From a virus, in IMG/VR virus record IMGVR_UViG_3300048996_000004, positions 1-42,082 of that record: 42,082 nt of DNA; one strand, given 5' to 3'. Position 1 is the first letter of the stretch. Every line of letters begins with the position of its first letter. Positions 3,618 to 24,155 of the stretch are shown here, in pieces. The notes beneath the pieces were generated by a model that was not told where the DNA came from, did not search any database, and worked only from the letters and a program-made list of their open reading frames with translations. The translations under genes were made by a program, and so were the position numbers.

Positions 3618-4745
3618 TCAGTACAGGTACTGCTTGCGGGTCGCGATGGACATTTCGTCATCCACGGACATCGTGTACCGAATGGTGTCGATGATATGAA
3701 CCTCGGACGTGCCCTCGCTGTACGTCACTGAAATGACGTCCCAAGCCTCCAGGGCCGGGTTAGGGACCAGGCCCAGGGTTACCGAGTACGGGAACCCGTG
3801 CGACGCGTTCAGGAGGTTCTGAGCCGCCGTTCCGCACTGGGAATCGGTGGTCAGGAACGAGGACGAGAAGAACTTGGGGACCTTGCCGAACGTCCCACCC
3901 CAGAAGGTCGGGGAGTTAGGGTCGCTATCGTACGCGATACCATAGACCGGGGCCGAGTTTCCGACCGGCTCACCGGTAGCCACGACTGCGTTGTAGACCC
4001 CGTCCCTGGAGATCGAGCGGCTCGCCTTGACGAGCACGCCGTTAGCTCCAGCATTGATATCGAAGACAGCGCGGCCCGTGGTATTGGGTACATCCTTGAC
4101 TACGAAACGGCCCGCGTAATCGAAGTAACAGATCTTGCCGTACGCCTTGACGAGTTCCTCAATGAAAGCCAGTCGATCCTGGTCTACGAAATGATCCGAA
4201 CCCAGCGTAGTCGTGGCGGCGGTGCCGCCCGGCCAGTTCGTAGAATCGTAGACCGTGGTAACGCCCGGCATCACATCCGTGATCAGGAAGTCGATGACCG
4301 AGGCAACAGAAGCTGAGGCCCCAAACTGAAGAGGGCTGATCACGCGCCCGTCCCGCAGGTTAGACTTACGGTCTTCGCCTGTGATTCGGGTAGCGGACCC
4401 ACTGAACTTCTTGCTGCGGATCACGGTGTCTTCTACAGAGTTCACGCGGAAGTACCCGAGACCCACGTACTCTGTAATTCCATTAGCGTACTGAACTCCG
4501 CGCTCTAGATAGATCTCGTGCGCGTACGAATTGATGTTCTCGAATGGCTCGGCTAGCGTGACGTCCATCGTGCCATTGACATCCGAGTTGACATCCACGG
4601 TCACGTCCCCAGCGATGACCTGGAGAGGAGGACCGGCACTGGCCGGATTGACCCCGACTGCCCAGGGCCAAACCAGCCGTGCACGGAATACCGCCTTGTG
4701 AGGGCCCCGAACCGTGTTCAGGAATGAATCAGTTACGGGGCGCAT
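3618..4745 (-). CDS. DUF5047-like minor tail protein (baseplate hub type)
   Basis: 375 aa. ATG 4745 is preferred over the nearby GTG because AAGGAG lies 8 nt upstream. The opening MRPVTDSFLNTVRGPHKA, the ERGVQYANGITEYVGLGYFR segment and the long beta-rich C-terminus match the DUF5047 family of actinophage minor tail proteins. These sit after the tape measure and distal-tail genes and are thought to form the tail tip. Gene order here agrees. Confidence 0.65.
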   Translation of the reverse strand: MRPVTDSFLNTVRGPHKAVFRARLVWPWAVGVNPASAGPPLQVIAGDVTVDVNSDVNGTMDVTLAEPFENINSYAHEIYLERGVQYANGITEYVGLGYFRVNSVEDTVIRSKKFSGSATRITGEDRKSNLRDGRVISPLQFGASASVASVIDFLITDVMPGVTTVYDSTNWPGGTAATTTLGSDHFVDQDRLAFIEELVKAYGKICYFDYAGRFVVKDVPNTTGRAVFDINAGANGVLVKASRSISRDGVYNAVVATGEPVGNSAPVYGIAYDSDPNSPTFWGGTFGKVPKFFSSSFLTTDSQCGTAAQNLLNASHGFPYSVTLGLVPNPALEAWDVISVTYSEGTSEVHIIDTIRYTMSVDDEMSIATRKQYLY

Positions 4746-20795: not shown

Positions 20796-20859
20796 ATTAG
20801 TAAGACCTCCGAATTAGTAAAAGCCGCCCCAGTGCCGGAGCACGGGACGGAATTAGTAA
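20796..20859. repeat. three copies of ATTAGTAA
   Basis: The octamer ATTAGTAA occurs at 20796, 20813 and 20852, between the last tRNA and the AT-hook-like gene. On the minus strand it reads TTACTAAT. It could be a binding site or chance in a small AT-rich patch. Confidence 0.35.
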
Positions 20860-20860
20860 G

Positions 20861-20934
20861 AGGGACATACGGGATTCGAACCCGTACGTTCAGTTTGGAA
20901 GACTGACATGCTTGCCGTTAAACATCAATGTCCC
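20861..20934 (-). tRNA. tRNA-Gly(TCC)
   Basis: Cloverleaf with perfect acceptor GGGACAT/ATGTCCC, anticodon loop CTTCCAA (anticodon TCC) on a 5-bp stem, and T-arm GGGTTCGAATCCC. No encoded CCA. Confidence 0.9.
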
Positions 20935-20939
20935 ATTGT

Positions 20940-20982
20940 GGAAAGCTCAGAGTGTCGGTTTCCTGTTACCTCTGAGCTTTCC
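20940..20982. repeat. 13-bp perfect inverted repeat between tRNA-Ala and tRNA-Gly
   Basis: GGAAAGCTCAGAG (20940-20952) and CTCTGAGCTTTCC (20970-20982) with a 17-nt loop fill almost the whole spacer. It is the strongest of several spacer hairpins in the array. A processing signal is plausible; it has no U-tract. Confidence 0.8.
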
Positions 20983-20985
20983 AAG

Positions 20986-21057
20986 TGGAGAAGACGGGAA
21001 TCGAACCCGTTCACCCGGTATGCAACGCCGGTGCTCTACCATTTGAGCTACAACCCC
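20986..21057 (-). tRNA. tRNA-Ala(TGC) with mismatched acceptor stem
   Basis: Anticodon loop GTTGCAT (TGC) and D-arm GCTC..GAGC are regular, and the Ala identity element G3-U70 is present. The acceptor GGGGTTG/CTTCTCC has two adjacent T-T oppositions at 5-68 and 6-67. Confidence 0.85.
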
Positions 21058-21149
21058 ATTGAATCCGGTTCCTAAAATAACGAGTCAAAGGGGAGAAACC
21101 GGCAAGCCGCCCGCATGACAAGTCCAGAAGTAAGGGATCTGGCTCCCAG

Positions 21150-21221
21150 CGATCCGTACGGGATTTGAACCCGCACCGTCCATCTTGACAGAATGGTGCT
21201 CTACCGTTGAGCTAACGGACC
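21150..21221 (-). tRNA. tRNA-Asp(GTC)
   Basis: Acceptor GGTCCGT/ACGGATC, D-arm GCTC..GAGC, anticodon loop CTGTCAA on CCATT/GATGG, T-loop TTCAAAT, discriminator G. Confidence 0.9.
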
Positions 21222-21289
21222 ATAAGAGCCGACTTTAAATGTTTCGGGGTGTCGACTATCCATCCCCGCCCGAGGATCACCCGGGACAG

Positions 21290-21362
21290 TACTGCTCCTA
21301 GGAGTTGAACCTAGCACAAGTTCCTTATCAGAGAACTTCGGTCAACCGGACACGCGAACAGC
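21290..21362 (-). tRNA. tRNA-Ile(GAT)
   Basis: Acceptor GCTGTTC/GAGCAGT (with G-U pairs), anticodon loop CTGATAA (GAT), T-arm CTAGG..CCTAG, discriminator A. The D-arm (GTGTCCGGTTGACC) is unusual. Confidence 0.8.
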
Positions 21363-21367
21363 ATGGG

Positions 21368-21440
21368 GTGTACGACGGGATTCGAACCCGCATCCTCCGG
21401 AGTCACAACCCGGTGCTCTACCTGTTAAGCTACATACAAC
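21368..21440 (-). tRNA. tRNA-His(GTG)
   Basis: Anticodon loop TTGTGAC on CCGGG/TCCGG, T-loop TTCGAAT. An extra 5' G (G-1) faces C73, the His identity pair. The 1-72 pair is T-C mismatched. Confidence 0.85.
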
Positions 21441-21442
21441 GC

Positions 21443-21511
21443 TACCGGCCAAGGGGTCGAACCTCGGTTGCTTGGTTCAGAGCCAAGTCTCTTGCCATTA
21501 GAGGAGCCGGT
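21443..21511 (-). tRNA. tRNA-Gln(CTG)
   Basis: Acceptor ACCGGCT/GGCCGGT, anticodon loop CTCTGAA on CTTGG/CCAAG, T-loop TTCGACC. Slightly short, with a small D-arm. Confidence 0.88.
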
Positions 21512-21517
21512 ATTGGT

Positions 21518-21587
21518 CTGGTACCAGGGAGTCGAACCCTGTATTTCCTATTCCCGAAATAGGCGGCTTGCCGTCTGCCTCGTACCA
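21518..21587 (-). tRNA. tRNA-Pro(CGG)
   Basis: Acceptor TGGTACG/GGTACCA, anticodon loop TTCGGGA on CCTAT/ATAGG, T-arm CAGGG TTCGACT CCCTG. Confidence 0.88.
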
Positions 21588-21592
21588 TATGG

Positions 21593-21664
21593 TGGCGGGG
21601 GCGGGACTCGAACCCGCATCTCCGAGCGTATGAAACTCGTGTGTTACCGTTACACTACCCCGGC
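21593..21664 (-). tRNA. tRNA with CAT anticodon (elongator Met or Ile2)
   Basis: Anticodon loop TTCATAC, T-loop TTCGAGT. The anticodon stem CGAGT/GCTCG lacks the three G-C pairs of an initiator, so it is not fMet. It could be elongator Met, or Ile(AUA) after lysidine modification. Acceptor GCCGGGG/CCCCGCC has a C-C opposition at 2-71. Confidence 0.82.
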
Positions 21665-21710
21665 ACGTGAAGAGAGCTTTTGGTACAGCAGATGCTCTCA
21701 GAACTGCCTG

Positions 21711-21784
21711 TAGGCCCACCAGGACTCGAACCTGGATCTCACGGATTAAGAGTCCGGGGTTTTTGCCATTGAAACTATAGGCCC
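21711..21784 (-). tRNA. tRNA-Lys(CTT)
   Basis: Acceptor GGGCCTA/TGGGCCT, anticodon loop CTCTTAA (CTT) on CGGA/TCCG, T-arm CCAGG TTCGAGT CCTGG, discriminator A. Confidence 0.88.
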
Positions 21785-21839
21785 ATGTACTGCGCGTCCG
21801 GTTCCTGCGCTGGAGTTTACCGGCAACTATGTTCTACAG

Positions 21840-21912
21840 TACCCTCGGTAGGATTCGAACCTACGGCATCCGGTTTAGGAAACCGGTGTTCTGTCCGCTG
21901 AACTACGAAGGT
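21840..21912 (-). tRNA. tRNA-Arg(CCT)
   Basis: Acceptor ACCTTCG/CGAGGGT, anticodon loop TTCCTAA on CCGGT/ACCGG, T-arm GTAGG TTCGAAT CCTAC, discriminator A. Confidence 0.9.
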
Positions 21913-21979
21913 AAACGGGAAGGCCGGTGGCCGAATCCACCACGTGTTTAAGCCCCGGTACAAGAGGGCACTTCCCTAG

Positions 21980-22053
21980 AACCCGATGCGGGACTCGAAC
22001 CCACGACCGCGCTGGTTCGTAGCCAGCGGCTCTATCCTCTGAGCTAATCGGGT
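21980..22053 (-). tRNA. tRNA-Arg(ACG)
   Basis: Acceptor ACCCGAT/ATCGGGT, D-arm GCTC..GAGC, anticodon loop CTACGAA on GCTGG/CCAGC, T-loop TTCGAGT. A34 would need deamination to inosine by host TadA to read CGU, CGC and CGA. Confidence 0.9.
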
Positions 22054-22058
22054 ATGAA

Positions 22059-22097
22059 AGCCCCGGGGTTCCAGCTTGGTGACTGGATCATGGGGCT
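22059..22097. repeat. spacer hairpin between tRNA-Val and tRNA-Arg(ACG)
   Basis: AGCCCC (22059-22064) / GGGGCT (22092-22097), with an inner CCAG/CTGG pair (22071-22074 and 22083-22086). It occupies the whole inter-tRNA gap. Confidence 0.65.
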
Positions 22098-22099
22098 AG

Positions 22100-22172
22100 T
22101 TGGCACGGAGGGAATCGAACCCACGACACCCTGGGTGTAAACCAGGTGCTACTTCCGCTGAGCTACGCGCCA
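22100..22172 (-). tRNA. tRNA-Val(TAC)
   Basis: Acceptor TGGCGCG/CGTGCCA, D-arm GCTC..TAGC, anticodon loop TTTACAC on CCTGG/CCAGG, T-loop TTCGATT, discriminator A. Confidence 0.9.
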
Positions 22173-22176
22173 TTGG

Positions 22177-22242
22177 CAAGGGGGCCGAGAGTCGAACTCG
22201 ATAGCGTCCGGTTTTGGAGACCAGACTCGCACCATGCGCCCC
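22177..22242 (-). tRNA. tRNA-Trp(CCA), compact with reduced D-arm
   Basis: The anticodon arm CTGGT CTCCAAA ACCGG and T-arm TCGAG TTCGACT CTCGG are clear Trp features. The D-arm is reduced to a 3-bp stem around CGCATGGTGCG, and the acceptor pairs only partly (GGGG with CCCCC). It begins about 10 nt after the SGNH hydrolase stop. It may be degenerate or simply divergent. Confidence 0.6.
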
Positions 22243-22249
22243 GATACGA

Positions 22250-22951
22250 TCAGCACATCCCGAGTAGGTAACCCCGGATCGCTGAGTAGAACACCCACTG
22301 ACCGAGCGCAGTCATGTGCACGCCGTCAGAAGTCTTGAAGAGGAACGGGTCATCGCCCGGGAAGTACCATTCGGCACCGAAGAACCGAGCCCCGTTAGCC
22401 TGAGCTAGTTCCTTCTCAGCCTGAAGGTAATCGCCCTGATCGCCTCGGGTAGAGGTCAGGCTCTGATTGTACACCCAGGGCATGTGAATGATCAGCAACG
22501 TGGAATCCGGGCTAAGCGCCTTGATCCTGGTGATGATCTGCTGGTACTGCGCCTTGAACACCTGGGGGTTGATCCCACCGGCCCAGTCGTTGGTGCCCCA
22601 GCCCAGAGTGATCAGGTTAGGCTGGTGCGACGTGAACTCGATATGACCCGAGTACTTGGCGCCGGAGACGTAGTCGGCGGTAGCCGACCCTGGGATAGCT
22701 CCTCCGGTCCAAATCTGCGTACCCGGGTACCCACCCGATCGGAGCGAGGCGCCTAGTTCGGAGGTCCAGCGCTGATCCACGGCCGAGACGGAGCCACCAT
22801 CGGTCAGAGAGTCGCCTAGAGCGTCGATAACAGGCGCTCCGGTACTCAGACCCTGGCACCACCCTCCGGTGCCCGCAGAGGCCGTCTGAGCCCCGGGAAT
22901 GGCCATCGTCGACATGAGCACCACGGCTAGGAAGAGTCGAAGCGCTCGCAC
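22250..22951 (-). CDS. secreted SGNH/GDSL-family hydrolase inside the tRNA array
   Basis: 233 aa from GTG 22951, with GAGAGG 7 nt upstream. The N-terminus is a Sec signal peptide: basic RALRLF, hydrophobic LAVVLMSTMAIPGA, cleavage near TASAG. The mature part has SGNH block I (IDALGDSLTDGG, nucleophile Ser), block III (LGWGTNDW, Asn) and block V (SDGVHMT, Asp and His). Such enzymes are esterases, lipases or O-deacetylases. It lies between tRNA-Glu and tRNA-Trp on the same strand, so it may be co-transcribed. A role on the host envelope is inferred. Confidence 0.88.
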   Translation of the reverse strand: MRALRLFLAVVLMSTMAIPGAQTASAGTGGWCQGLSTGAPVIDALGDSLTDGGSVSAVDQRWTSELGASLRSGGYPGTQIWTGGAIPGSATADYVSGAKYSGHIEFTSHQPNLITLGWGTNDWAGGINPQVFKAQYQQIITRIKALSPDSTLLIIHMPWVYNQSLTSTRGDQGDYLQAEKELAQANGARFFGAEWYFPGDDPFLFKTSDGVHMTALGQWVFYSAIRGYLLGMC

Positions 22952-22973
22952 AGGCCTACCTCTCTAGGTTTAA

Positions 22974-23046
22974 GTGATCCATCCCGGACTCGAACCGAGG
23001 ACATCTGCTTGAGGGGCAGATGAGTTACCACTACTCCAATGGACCA
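22974..23046 (-). tRNA. tRNA-Glu(CTC) with C33
   Basis: Acceptor TGGTCCA/TGGATCA. A 6-bp anticodon stem ATCTGC/GCAGAT encloses loop CCCTCAA, giving anticodon CTC with C instead of the near-universal U at position 33. T-loop TTCGAGT. Confidence 0.82.
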
Positions 23047-23049
23047 GGG

Positions 23050-23076
23050 GCCTGGTAACGCGGAGGGCTACCAGGC
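23050..23076. repeat. spacer hairpin between tRNA-Thr and tRNA-Glu
   Basis: Perfect 8-bp inverted repeat GCCTGGTA (23050-23057) / TACCAGGC (23069-23076), filling most of the gap. Confidence 0.75.
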
Positions 23077-23080
23077 TGAG

Positions 23081-23151
23081 AGCCAACGGCCGGAGTCGAA
23101 CCGACATTTAGGGGATACGACGCCCTAGTCTTACCGTTAGACGACGGAGGC
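23081..23151 (-). tRNA. tRNA-Thr(CGT) with mismatched acceptor stem
   Basis: Anticodon loop GTCGTAT (CGT), D-arm GTC..GAC, T-arm GTCGG TTCGACT CCGGC. Acceptor GCCTCCG/CGTTGGC has T-T at 4-69 and C-T at 5-68. Confidence 0.82.
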
Positions 23152-23248
23152 AAAAGTCCCTGTTTCAGACCACCCGGGTGGGCCCTCCACTTAAGCGCGA
23201 GGGATTCGCGCAGACAGCTCCGTGTTCCTATGTGACCGTGCCGTCTAG

Positions 23249-23321
23249 TACTCCCCCAGGGATTCGAACCCTGACTGGACCGGGTCTGAGCCGGACGCCT
23301 CTTCCGTTGGGCTAGAGGAGC
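23249..23321 (-). tRNA. tRNA with CAG anticodon (Leu), short variable arm
   Basis: Acceptor GCTCCTC/GGGGAGT pairs over 7 bp. D-stem GCC/GGC, anticodon loop CTCAGAC on CCGG/CCGG, T-arm CAGGG TTCGAAT CCCTG. Bacterial Leu tRNAs normally have a long class II variable arm; this one has only about 6 nt. Confidence 0.8.
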
Positions 23322-23392
23322 ATAAGAGAGCTATGTCGGGCTCATCCCGCCTAGGCACCACGTTAGCCCTAGGGACCCTCGTCAGGGCCAAG

Positions 23393-23461
23393 TGCCTCCA
23401 CCAGGAATCGAACCTGACTCAGTAGCGGTTTACAGCCGCGCTGCTTCCCAGAAGTGTAGGC
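23393..23461 (-). tRNA. tRNA-Tyr(GTA), short variable arm
   Basis: Anticodon loop CTGTAAA (GTA) on GCGG/CCGC, T-arm TCAGG TTCGATT CCTGG, acceptor GCCTACA/TGGAGGC with one A-G opposition. Bacterial Tyr tRNAs are usually class II; here the variable region is short and the D-arm small. Confidence 0.8.
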
Positions 23462-23465
23462 TTGG

Positions 23466-23537
23466 ACACTCAGGCCGGATTCAAACCGGCGTAGACCTGG
23501 GTTGCAACCAGGCACCTAGTCTCTCGGTCACTGAGCG
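23466..23537 (-). tRNA. tRNA-Cys(GCA)
   Basis: Acceptor CGCTCAG/CTGAGTG, anticodon loop TTGCAAC on CCTGG/CCAGG, T-arm GCCGG TTTGAAT CCGGC. Confidence 0.85.
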
Positions 23538-23541
23538 TTGG

Positions 23542-23611
23542 ATGGGGCAAGGGTCGATACCACCCTATGGCGTAAAACCCACTGTCCGGCTCACACCGGC
23601 TTGAACCCCAT
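23542..23611 (-). other. degenerate tRNA-like element
   Basis: A 70-nt segment lies exactly between tRNA-Ser(GCT) and tRNA-Cys with a strong acceptor-like stem ATGGGGT/GCCCCAT. It has a 5-bp T-arm-like stem AGGGT/ACCCT whose loop is GGTATCG, not TTCRANY. The candidate anticodon arm has an 8-nt loop, GTTTTACG. If functional the anticodon would be TTT or shifted. It could be a decayed tRNA-Lys. Confidence 0.5.
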
Positions 23612-23613
23612 TG

Positions 23614-23696
23614 CGGAAAGGAGAGGAATCGAACCTCTGAGCCCCGAGAGGCTACGCGGGTAGCAGCCGCGTTGTGGATCCCAGCCACACCAATCC
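23614..23696 (-). tRNA. tRNA-Ser(GCT), class II, mismatched acceptor stem
   Basis: Anticodon loop CTGCTAC on GCGG/CCGC, a long variable arm (GCCTCTCGGGGC), T-arm AGAGG TTCGATT CCTCT, and discriminator G73, which is typical of Ser. Acceptor GGATTGG/CCTTTCC has T-T at 4-69 and 5-68. Confidence 0.88.
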
Positions 23697-23704
23697 AAGA
23701 TTAA

Positions 23705-23773
23705 GGATCTAGACCTCGCTCTTACCGGAGTCGATGTCGGCTATCCAGCGCCCTGCGGGGCGCGCCTAGATCC
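23705..23773. repeat. tRNA-sized spacer closed by an 8-bp inverted repeat
   Basis: GGATCTAG (23705-23712) and CTAGATCC (23766-23773) close a 69-nt element. It contains an inner GCGCCC/GGGCGC hairpin (23748-23753 and 23758-23763). There is no T-loop or anticodon loop, so it is not a tRNA. Confidence 0.65.
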
Positions 23774-23775
23774 AG

Positions 23776-23862
23776 CGGAGAGTGGAGGAGTCGAACCCCT
23801 AGGTCAATGCCTACCATCCCGGGTTTCGAAGCCGGTGCCCAGCCACCCGGGCGGCACAATCC
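23776..23862 (-). tRNA. tRNA-Ser(CGA), class II, mismatched acceptor stem
   Basis: Loop TTCGAAA (CGA), D-arm GCCC..GGGC, long variable arm, T-loop TTCGACT, discriminator G. Acceptor GGATTGT/ACTCTCC has T-C at 4-69 and T-T at 5-68. Its first five bases are shared with the half-tRNA upstream. Confidence 0.82.
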
Positions 23863-23900
23863 ATAACTTGGAGTGTTCTATCCATTTGAACTACGCTAGC
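23858..23900 (-). pseudogene. 5' half of a tRNA (Asn-like) fused to tRNA-Ser
   Basis: The minus strand reads GCTAGCG-TA-GTTC..GAAC followed by ACTCC AAGTTAT GGATT. This is a good acceptor-5', D-arm and anticodon arm with GTT as possible anticodon. No T-arm or 3' acceptor follows, because tRNA-Ser(CGA) starts inside the 3' anticodon stem. Probably a recombination relic. Confidence 0.55.
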
Positions 23901-23944
23901 TTCTCAACTAGTCGCCGAGTGCTGGACCCCGGATCTCTCCAACG

Positions 23945-24016
23945 CCGAAGATGTAGGAATCGAACCTACGCGCCTCGGGCTTCAACCGAGTGCTCTTCCA
24001 ACTGAGCTAATCTCCG
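23945..24016 (-). tRNA. tRNA-Phe(GAA)
   Basis: Acceptor CGGAGAT/ATCTTCG, D-arm GCTC..GAGC, anticodon loop TTGAAGC on CTCGG/CCGAG, T-arm GTAGG TTCGATT CCTAC. Confidence 0.9.
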
Positions 24017-24019
24017 ATA

Positions 24020-24071
24020 GCTAGGAATTTGATTTCAGGGGGTTTCATATCCCCAAGGGCAGAGACCTAGC
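24020..24071. repeat. spacer hairpin between tRNA-Asn and tRNA-Phe
   Basis: GCTAGG (24020-24025) / CCTAGC (24066-24071), with an inner GGGG/CCCC stem. Confidence 0.6.
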
Positions 24072-24083
24072 ACTACTGCCGAG

Positions 24084-24155
24084 CTGACCGGGCAGGATTC
24101 GAACCTACATTGGAGACGTTAACAGCATCTGGTCTTACCGTTAGACGACCGGCCA
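24084..24155 (-). tRNA. tRNA-Asn(GTT), first in the array
   Basis: Acceptor TGGCCGG/CCGGTCA, D-arm GTC..GAC, anticodon loop CTGTTAA on AGATG/CGTCT, T-loop TTCGAAT, discriminator G. Confidence 0.9.

Follow-up and report, generated by a model that had tools for sequence, protein, structure and literature searches.

A full amino-acid tRNA set and a permuted tRNA-shaped element in a 42-kb phage genome

In a 2019 survey, the viral genomes with clusters of at least 15 transfer RNA (tRNA) genes all measured 72-617 kb, and eight had all 20 isotypes (PMC6409571). Among actinophages, near-complete isotype sets are described for mycobacteriophage clusters C1 and M (PMC10264068, PMC6409571), whose genomes are at least 72 kb in that survey (PMC6409571) and which carry several tRNAs per codon box, as in ScoobyDoobyDoo. 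Here we analyse the whole IMG/VR virus record IMGVR_UViG_3300048996_000004, a stretch of 42,082 nt hereafter called the window. Its tRNA array serves all 20 amino acids with exactly one tRNA per codon box, Leu-UUR being the sole empty box and no box being doubled, and contains an RNA element shaped like a permuted tRNA.

Small Streptomyces phages offer the nearest comparison. Annotated sets of 22 tRNA genes for all 20 amino acids are present in JPandJE, ZooBear, Percastrophe and Treat (Immanueltrevirus; 46.0-46.4 kb) and in Dennebes (46.2 kb), so that complete sets are not confined to much larger phages, as the first-pass annotation of the window had supposed them usually to be. More broadly, the Beephvirinae (Immanueltrevirus, Flowerpowervirus and Manuelvirus; 45-46.5 kb) resemble the window: about 19-22 tRNA genes are packed into 2-3 kb, and the array includes a permuted tRNA-shaped element. 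In Streptomyces phage Shaeky (45.6 kb) the tRNAs number 16. JPandJE (46.4 kb) also has one tRNA per codon box with Leu-UUR alone empty, shares 18 of the 22 anticodons, and resembles the window in its short Trp gene, which at 67 nt is unusually small. The two sets differ in four four-codon boxes, where the anticodon begins with C (C34) in the window and with U34 or A34 in JPandJE. However, DNA similarity between the Beephvirinae and the window does not extend beyond single tRNAs, and gene order differs. Because JPandJE shares the box set and 18 anticodons, full tRNA sets in small phages are already present in public data, and the window is a further example, not the first. Within a partial coverage of the literature, we found no paper discussing full tRNA sets in small Streptomyces phages.

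Twenty-two tRNA genes and their conservation

The array comprises 22 minus-strand tRNA genes (20860-24155), with Arg and Ser present twice each. ARAGORN found 20 of them, with the anticodons already listed in the first-pass annotation; it missed Trp(CCA) and Tyr(GTA), which were likewise without a match to RF00005 and were added by reading and folding the gaps. That annotation had counted about 23 genes, one too many, yet its list of anticodons was right and a separate, 23rd tRNA-shaped element does exist. Its statement that every amino acid has at least one gene stands, on the 20 ARAGORN genes together with Trp and Tyr, which are supported by fold and conservation. When Rfam was scanned in a focused way, the gathering score of RF00005 was exceeded by 16 of the 20 ARAGORN genes; the four that fell short are Ile, Pro and the two type-II Ser genes, the latter giving weak tRNA-Sec matches. 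The features of the array and its borders are as follows, with the evidence for each.

20824-20850, minus: hairpin followed by a T-run, a probable terminator judging from its sequence; just after the last tRNA, also in relative L006 (see below)
20860-20934, minus: tRNA-Gly(TCC); ARAGORN, RF00005
20985-21057, minus: tRNA-Ala(TGC); ARAGORN, RF00005; 100% identity in L006
21149-21221, minus: tRNA-Asp(GTC); ARAGORN, RF00005
21289-21362, minus: tRNA-Ile(GAT); ARAGORN; 100% identity in L006
21364-21439, minus: tRNA-His(GTG), CCA encoded; ARAGORN, RF00005
21441-21512, minus: tRNA-Gln(CTG); ARAGORN, RF00005
21518-21587, minus: tRNA-Pro(CGG), weak D-arm; ARAGORN; five compensatory pairs relative to L006
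21590-21664, minus: tRNA-Met(CAT), CCA encoded; ARAGORN, RF00005
21710-21784, minus: tRNA-Lys(CTT); ARAGORN, RF00005
21839-21912, minus: tRNA-Arg(CCT); ARAGORN, RF00005
21979-22053, minus: tRNA-Arg(ACG); ARAGORN, RF00005
22099-22172, minus: tRNA-Val(TAC); ARAGORN, RF00005
about 22174-22243, minus: tRNA-Trp(CCA), CCA encoded, D-arm CGCA-TGG-TGCG; sequence, fold, pairing kept in L006
22250-22951, minus: GDSL/SGNH hydrolase gene within the array; PF13472, E 7.6e-20; same place in L006
22974-23045, minus: tRNA-Glu(CTC); ARAGORN, RF00005
23080-23151, minus: tRNA-Thr(CGT); ARAGORN, RF00005
23248-23321, minus: tRNA-Leu(CAG), short class I variable region; ARAGORN, RF00005
about 23393-23461, minus: tRNA-Tyr(GTA), no long variable arm, short D-arm CTTC-TGG-GAAG; sequence, L006 alignment
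23463-23537, minus: tRNA-Cys(GCA), CCA encoded; ARAGORN, RF00005
23613-23696, minus: tRNA-Ser(GCT), type II; ARAGORN
23775-23862, minus: tRNA-Ser(CGA), type II; ARAGORN
23863-23943, minus: permuted tRNA-shaped element; folds, sequence, L006 homologue
23944-24016, minus: tRNA-Phe(GAA); ARAGORN, RF00005
24083-24155, minus: tRNA-Asn(GTT); ARAGORN, RF00005
24471-25043: HNH endonuclease gene, adjoining the array

L006 is a 43.7-kb IMG/VR contig whose terminase is 87% identical to that of the window. It keeps all 20 ARAGORN tRNA genes in the same order and with the same anticodons, and has counterparts of Trp and Tyr in which pairing is kept. Among the stem pairs compared between the two arrays, 44 were compensatory (both sides changed, still pairing), 19 were changed on one side and still paired, 9 were broken and 332 were unchanged. 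The tRNA genes are under selection for their fold, as the 44 compensatory against 9 broken changes show, and the recurrence of 20 genes in the same order and with the same anticodons, together with the compensatory changes, excludes chance. Two pattern scans of viral contigs for further close relatives bearing the array gave L006 only, and scans with the HNH endonuclease and, on genome contigs, with the terminase gave nothing.

Two other segments of the array are shared with L006. The GDSL/SGNH hydrolase gene occupies the same array position there (74%), and L042, a 101.7-kb contig, has a homologue (54%) that is not accompanied by a tRNA array. Between Tyr and Leu, about 70 nt (23322-23392, minus strand) are nearly identical in L006, a conservation higher than that of many of the tRNAs; this segment has no Rfam match.

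Codon coverage and the role of the array

Under strict wobble the 22 anticodons read 35 of the 61 codons, which make up 64.6% of codon occurrences across 31 phage genes, and this coverage rises to 81.3% if super-wobble by U34 is allowed; both values depend on the choice of open reading frames and on wobble rules, and not on measured decoding. The codons ACC, GAA, CTC, TCC, CCC and CGG are unreadable by the set. An isotype-complete set is thus not equal to a codon-complete one: at these levels of coverage the array lowers dependence on host tRNAs without removing it, and the near independence from host tRNA pools first proposed for this phage is too strong a claim. It would fit JPandJE better, because with super-wobble (A34 there also reading all four codons) the JPandJE set reads 99.2% of its own codons.

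We regard it as probable that the array is an insurance against a general loss of host tRNAs, with one tRNA per box except Leu-UUR. The array genes would be transcribed together, and RNase P and 3' enzymes of the host would mature the transcript; the host would add CCA to most of the tRNAs and its synthetases would charge them. The phage tRNAs would then sustain phage translation while host tRNAs fall during infection, whether through anticodon nucleases or through general decay of host RNA. A role against anticodon nucleases has been proposed for mycobacteriophage tRNAs (PMC10264068), and phage tRNAs have been linked to evasion of tRNA-targeting defences (PMC10264068, PMC11555353). The tRNA-nuclease idea is plausible for the window phage.

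Several observations weigh against such an insurance. In the four-codon boxes of Pro, Thr, Leu and Ser-UCN the tRNAs are of the C34 type and leave most of the box unreadable, which is odd for a pure insurance. Moreover, the Trp, Tyr, Leu and Pro genes depart from the canonical bacterial form: the D-arms of Trp and Tyr have 3-nt loops only, and tRNA-Leu has no long variable arm. These four tRNAs may be poorly charged. We had considered the class I form of tRNA-Leu as an anomaly and rejected this; a similar form is common in phages.

Codon compensation, in which the tRNAs raise supply for codons used more by the phage than by its host, is a doubtful explanation of the array as a whole. It would account for the nine C34 anticodons and Met CAT, and for the fact that CAG (91% of Gln codons), AAG (94% of Lys), TTC (87% of Phe) and TAC (84% of Tyr), which dominate their amino acids, are all served. 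The earlier suggestion that the C34 anticodons match G-ending codons is only partly right; Thr is a counterexample, since its anticodon CGT reads ACG (38%) while the commonest Thr codon is ACC (46%). Yet nearly all boxes are covered, including AGG, which makes up 6% of Arg codons and is served by its own tRNA, and under strict wobble the commonest codons of Gly, Ala, Val and Thr are unread. JPandJE, another phage, keeps the box pattern despite different anticodons in four boxes. Because coverage goes by box regardless of how much the box is used, down to the little-used AGG, insurance fits better than a correction of rare codons.

It is very unlikely that the array is a mobile cassette, persisting by easy recombination beside homing functions while the tRNAs themselves bring little benefit, for although an HNH endonuclease gene adjoins it and other small phages show gains and losses of tRNA genes in their arrays, the excess of compensatory over broken stem changes and the identical anticodons of the 20 ARAGORN genes show selection.

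A permuted tRNA-shaped element within the array

The element at 23863-23943, which bears no annotation, is directly flanked by the Phe and Ser(CGA) genes. It presents, in this order, a T-arm, a closed acceptor-like hairpin and a D-arm, enclosed by a 6-bp anticodon-like stem (TTGGAG...CTCCAA), that is, a cloverleaf in permuted order. In L006 the enclosing stem is GGTGAG/CTCACC, which amounts to three double changes. The T-loop is degenerate in the window and canonical in L006. Minimum-free-energy folds of both copies give the permuted shape, with the T-arm shifted in L006, and z-scores alone are not significant. The L006 homologue reached 40.2 bits on a rotated-tRNA covariance model; because this model gives equally high scores where two ordinary tRNAs adjoin, the value was not used as proof of a new RNA class.

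Stronger evidence for the architecture comes from the Beephvirinae, where the same permuted arrangement sits between Pro and Gly. Across seven distinct sequences, pairing holds in 92.6% of cells. Both sides change in 11 of the 22 pairs, a number that drops to 0-3 once the partners are slid. That the element consists of two remnants of adjacent ordinary tRNAs is disfavoured, as the anticodon-like and acceptor-like helices covary there. A scanner recovered further copies, also lacking an RNA annotation, in Gordonia phages Phendrix and GodonK, Arthrobacter phage Racecar, Rhodococcus phage NiceHouse and virus Rctr197k. At scores of at least 21 it gave no hit in 417 kb of non-tRNA phage DNA (both strands) and one in 2.1 Mb of shuffled DNA; it misses the window and L006 copies, whose acceptor-like stems are imperfect.

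Two further observations concern such RNAs. The permuted elements of Racecar, NiceHouse and GodonK are closely preceded by a DUF7873 (PF25283) gene (L081:792-1526, L082:113-844 and L075:5809-6543, respectively), whose product is a possible partner of them. In the window, the minus-strand segment 23705-23773 between the two Ser genes forms another 4-way-junction RNA, with closing stem GGATCTAG/CTAGATCC; its L006 counterpart (about 3758-3824, stem GGAACTAG/CTAGTTCC) is located after Ser(GCT), and z-scores are about -2 in both. It is possibly another permuted tRNA-shaped element.

As to identity, the element is more probably a Y-RNA-like mimic than a 23rd tRNA used in decoding, because it resembles the tRNA-mimic module of the bacterial YrlA Y RNA (RF02553), which holds a T-arm, a closed acceptor-like hairpin and a D-arm within one stem. 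Chen et al. are said to have reported in 2014 that Y RNAs also occur in phages. In our focused scan the Percastrophe copy matched the full-length YrlA model (E 1.6e-6, below the gathering score); copies from Beephvirinae, from Gordonia phage Phendrix and from Arthrobacter phage Racecar gave small E-values, also below gathering. Such a match alone is weak evidence, because the model also matches ordinary tRNA junctions, and 13 of the 14 control genomes yielded sub-cut-off matches. Against this Rfam model the window copy gives no match and that of L006 an insignificant one (15.6 bits, E 0.47), so we call the element Y-RNA-like or permuted tRNA-shaped, any function being putative. No long basal stem is seen around it, and no TROVE/Ro60 gene was found in the window, L006, JPandJE or Stella records. 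At the end of the tRNA array of Gordonia phage Sixama, we observed an unannotated transfer-messenger RNA gene (RF00023, 88 bits; L076:8708-9129) and a Ro60/TROVE gene (L076:9507-11138). The tRNA-like domain of YrlA has been described (PMC8394870, PMC7790460), and a role as a nuclease competitor was suggested for YrlA in Salmonella (PMC7790460). The same role for the phage element, which is speculation by analogy, would fit an array that insures against tRNA loss.

The element would be a genuine circularly permuted tRNA gene if its ends were joined in the anticodon loop. The permuted tRNA genes of algae and Thermofilum similarly place the 3' half before the 5' half, with a junction at the acceptor end (PMC3978253, PMC4033280); they mature to decoding tRNAs after splicing at a bulge-helix-bulge motif, a route that is hypothetical for the phage element. 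None is listed in bacteria (PMC4033280). The covariation of the permuted cloverleaf in the Beephvirinae would suit this identity, as would the discriminator base and CCA encoded inside the acceptor hairpin of some Gordonia, Arthrobacter and Rhodococcus phage copies. It is nevertheless unlikely: the anticodon-loop sequence is not conserved (GTTAT versus GTTTAGCAT), the acceptor strands of the L063 copy are capped by a 4-nt loop that leaves no room for CCA, the T-loop motif is lost in several copies, no RtcB-like ligase was found in the window or JPandJE, and the architecture is that of YrlA. The reading of these elements as the first permuted tRNA genes in phages is weakened by the Rfam YrlA match. 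Elsewhere, the Mycobacterium prophage prophiGD54-2 has genes for an RtcB-like RNA ligase (L074:4037-5362) and an RF-1-like protein (L074:3484-3822) at the end of its tRNA array, and RtcB relatives occur in 653 phage records.

Genome context and significance

The window has an exact 127-bp direct terminal repeat at its ends, leaving about 41,955 unique bases. Because of this repeat and the presence of head and packaging, tail, lysis and replication genes, it looks like a complete, circularised phage genome of about 42 kb; the repeat disfavours a fragment of a larger genome. To the left of the array lie genes for endolysin, tail proteins, tape measure, capsid, protease, portal and large terminase; to the right, those for the HNH endonuclease, an exonuclease, a DnaB-type helicase, a Toprim protein, endonuclease VII and DNA polymerase. 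The array runs leftward, upstream of the structural genes and on the same strand. No cultured close relative was found by DNA comparison. The best protein likenesses are to actinophages for the terminase (about 38%) and portal (26%) and to mycobacteriophages for the polymerase (60%), and these relatives point to a phage of Actinomycetota. A 35-kb contig (L044, IMGVR_UViG_3300023269_000003) whose DNA polymerase is related (58%) packs 13 or more tRNA genes into 1.6 kb.

A full amino-acid tRNA set thus fits in a 42-kb phage, smaller than the other complete-set phages examined. Distant small actinophages share a set with a single tRNA for each codon box, a pattern that speaks for insurance against a general loss of tRNAs. 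The tRNA-mimic elements inside such arrays link them with the field of Y RNAs and tRNA repair. More tentatively, phage arrays, that of the window among them, may carry a selected permuted tRNA-shaped RNA that competes for tRNA-cleaving enzymes or serves them as a decoy; the CCA-encoding copies may instead be real permuted tRNA genes, and if so, they would be the first reported outside archaea and algae.

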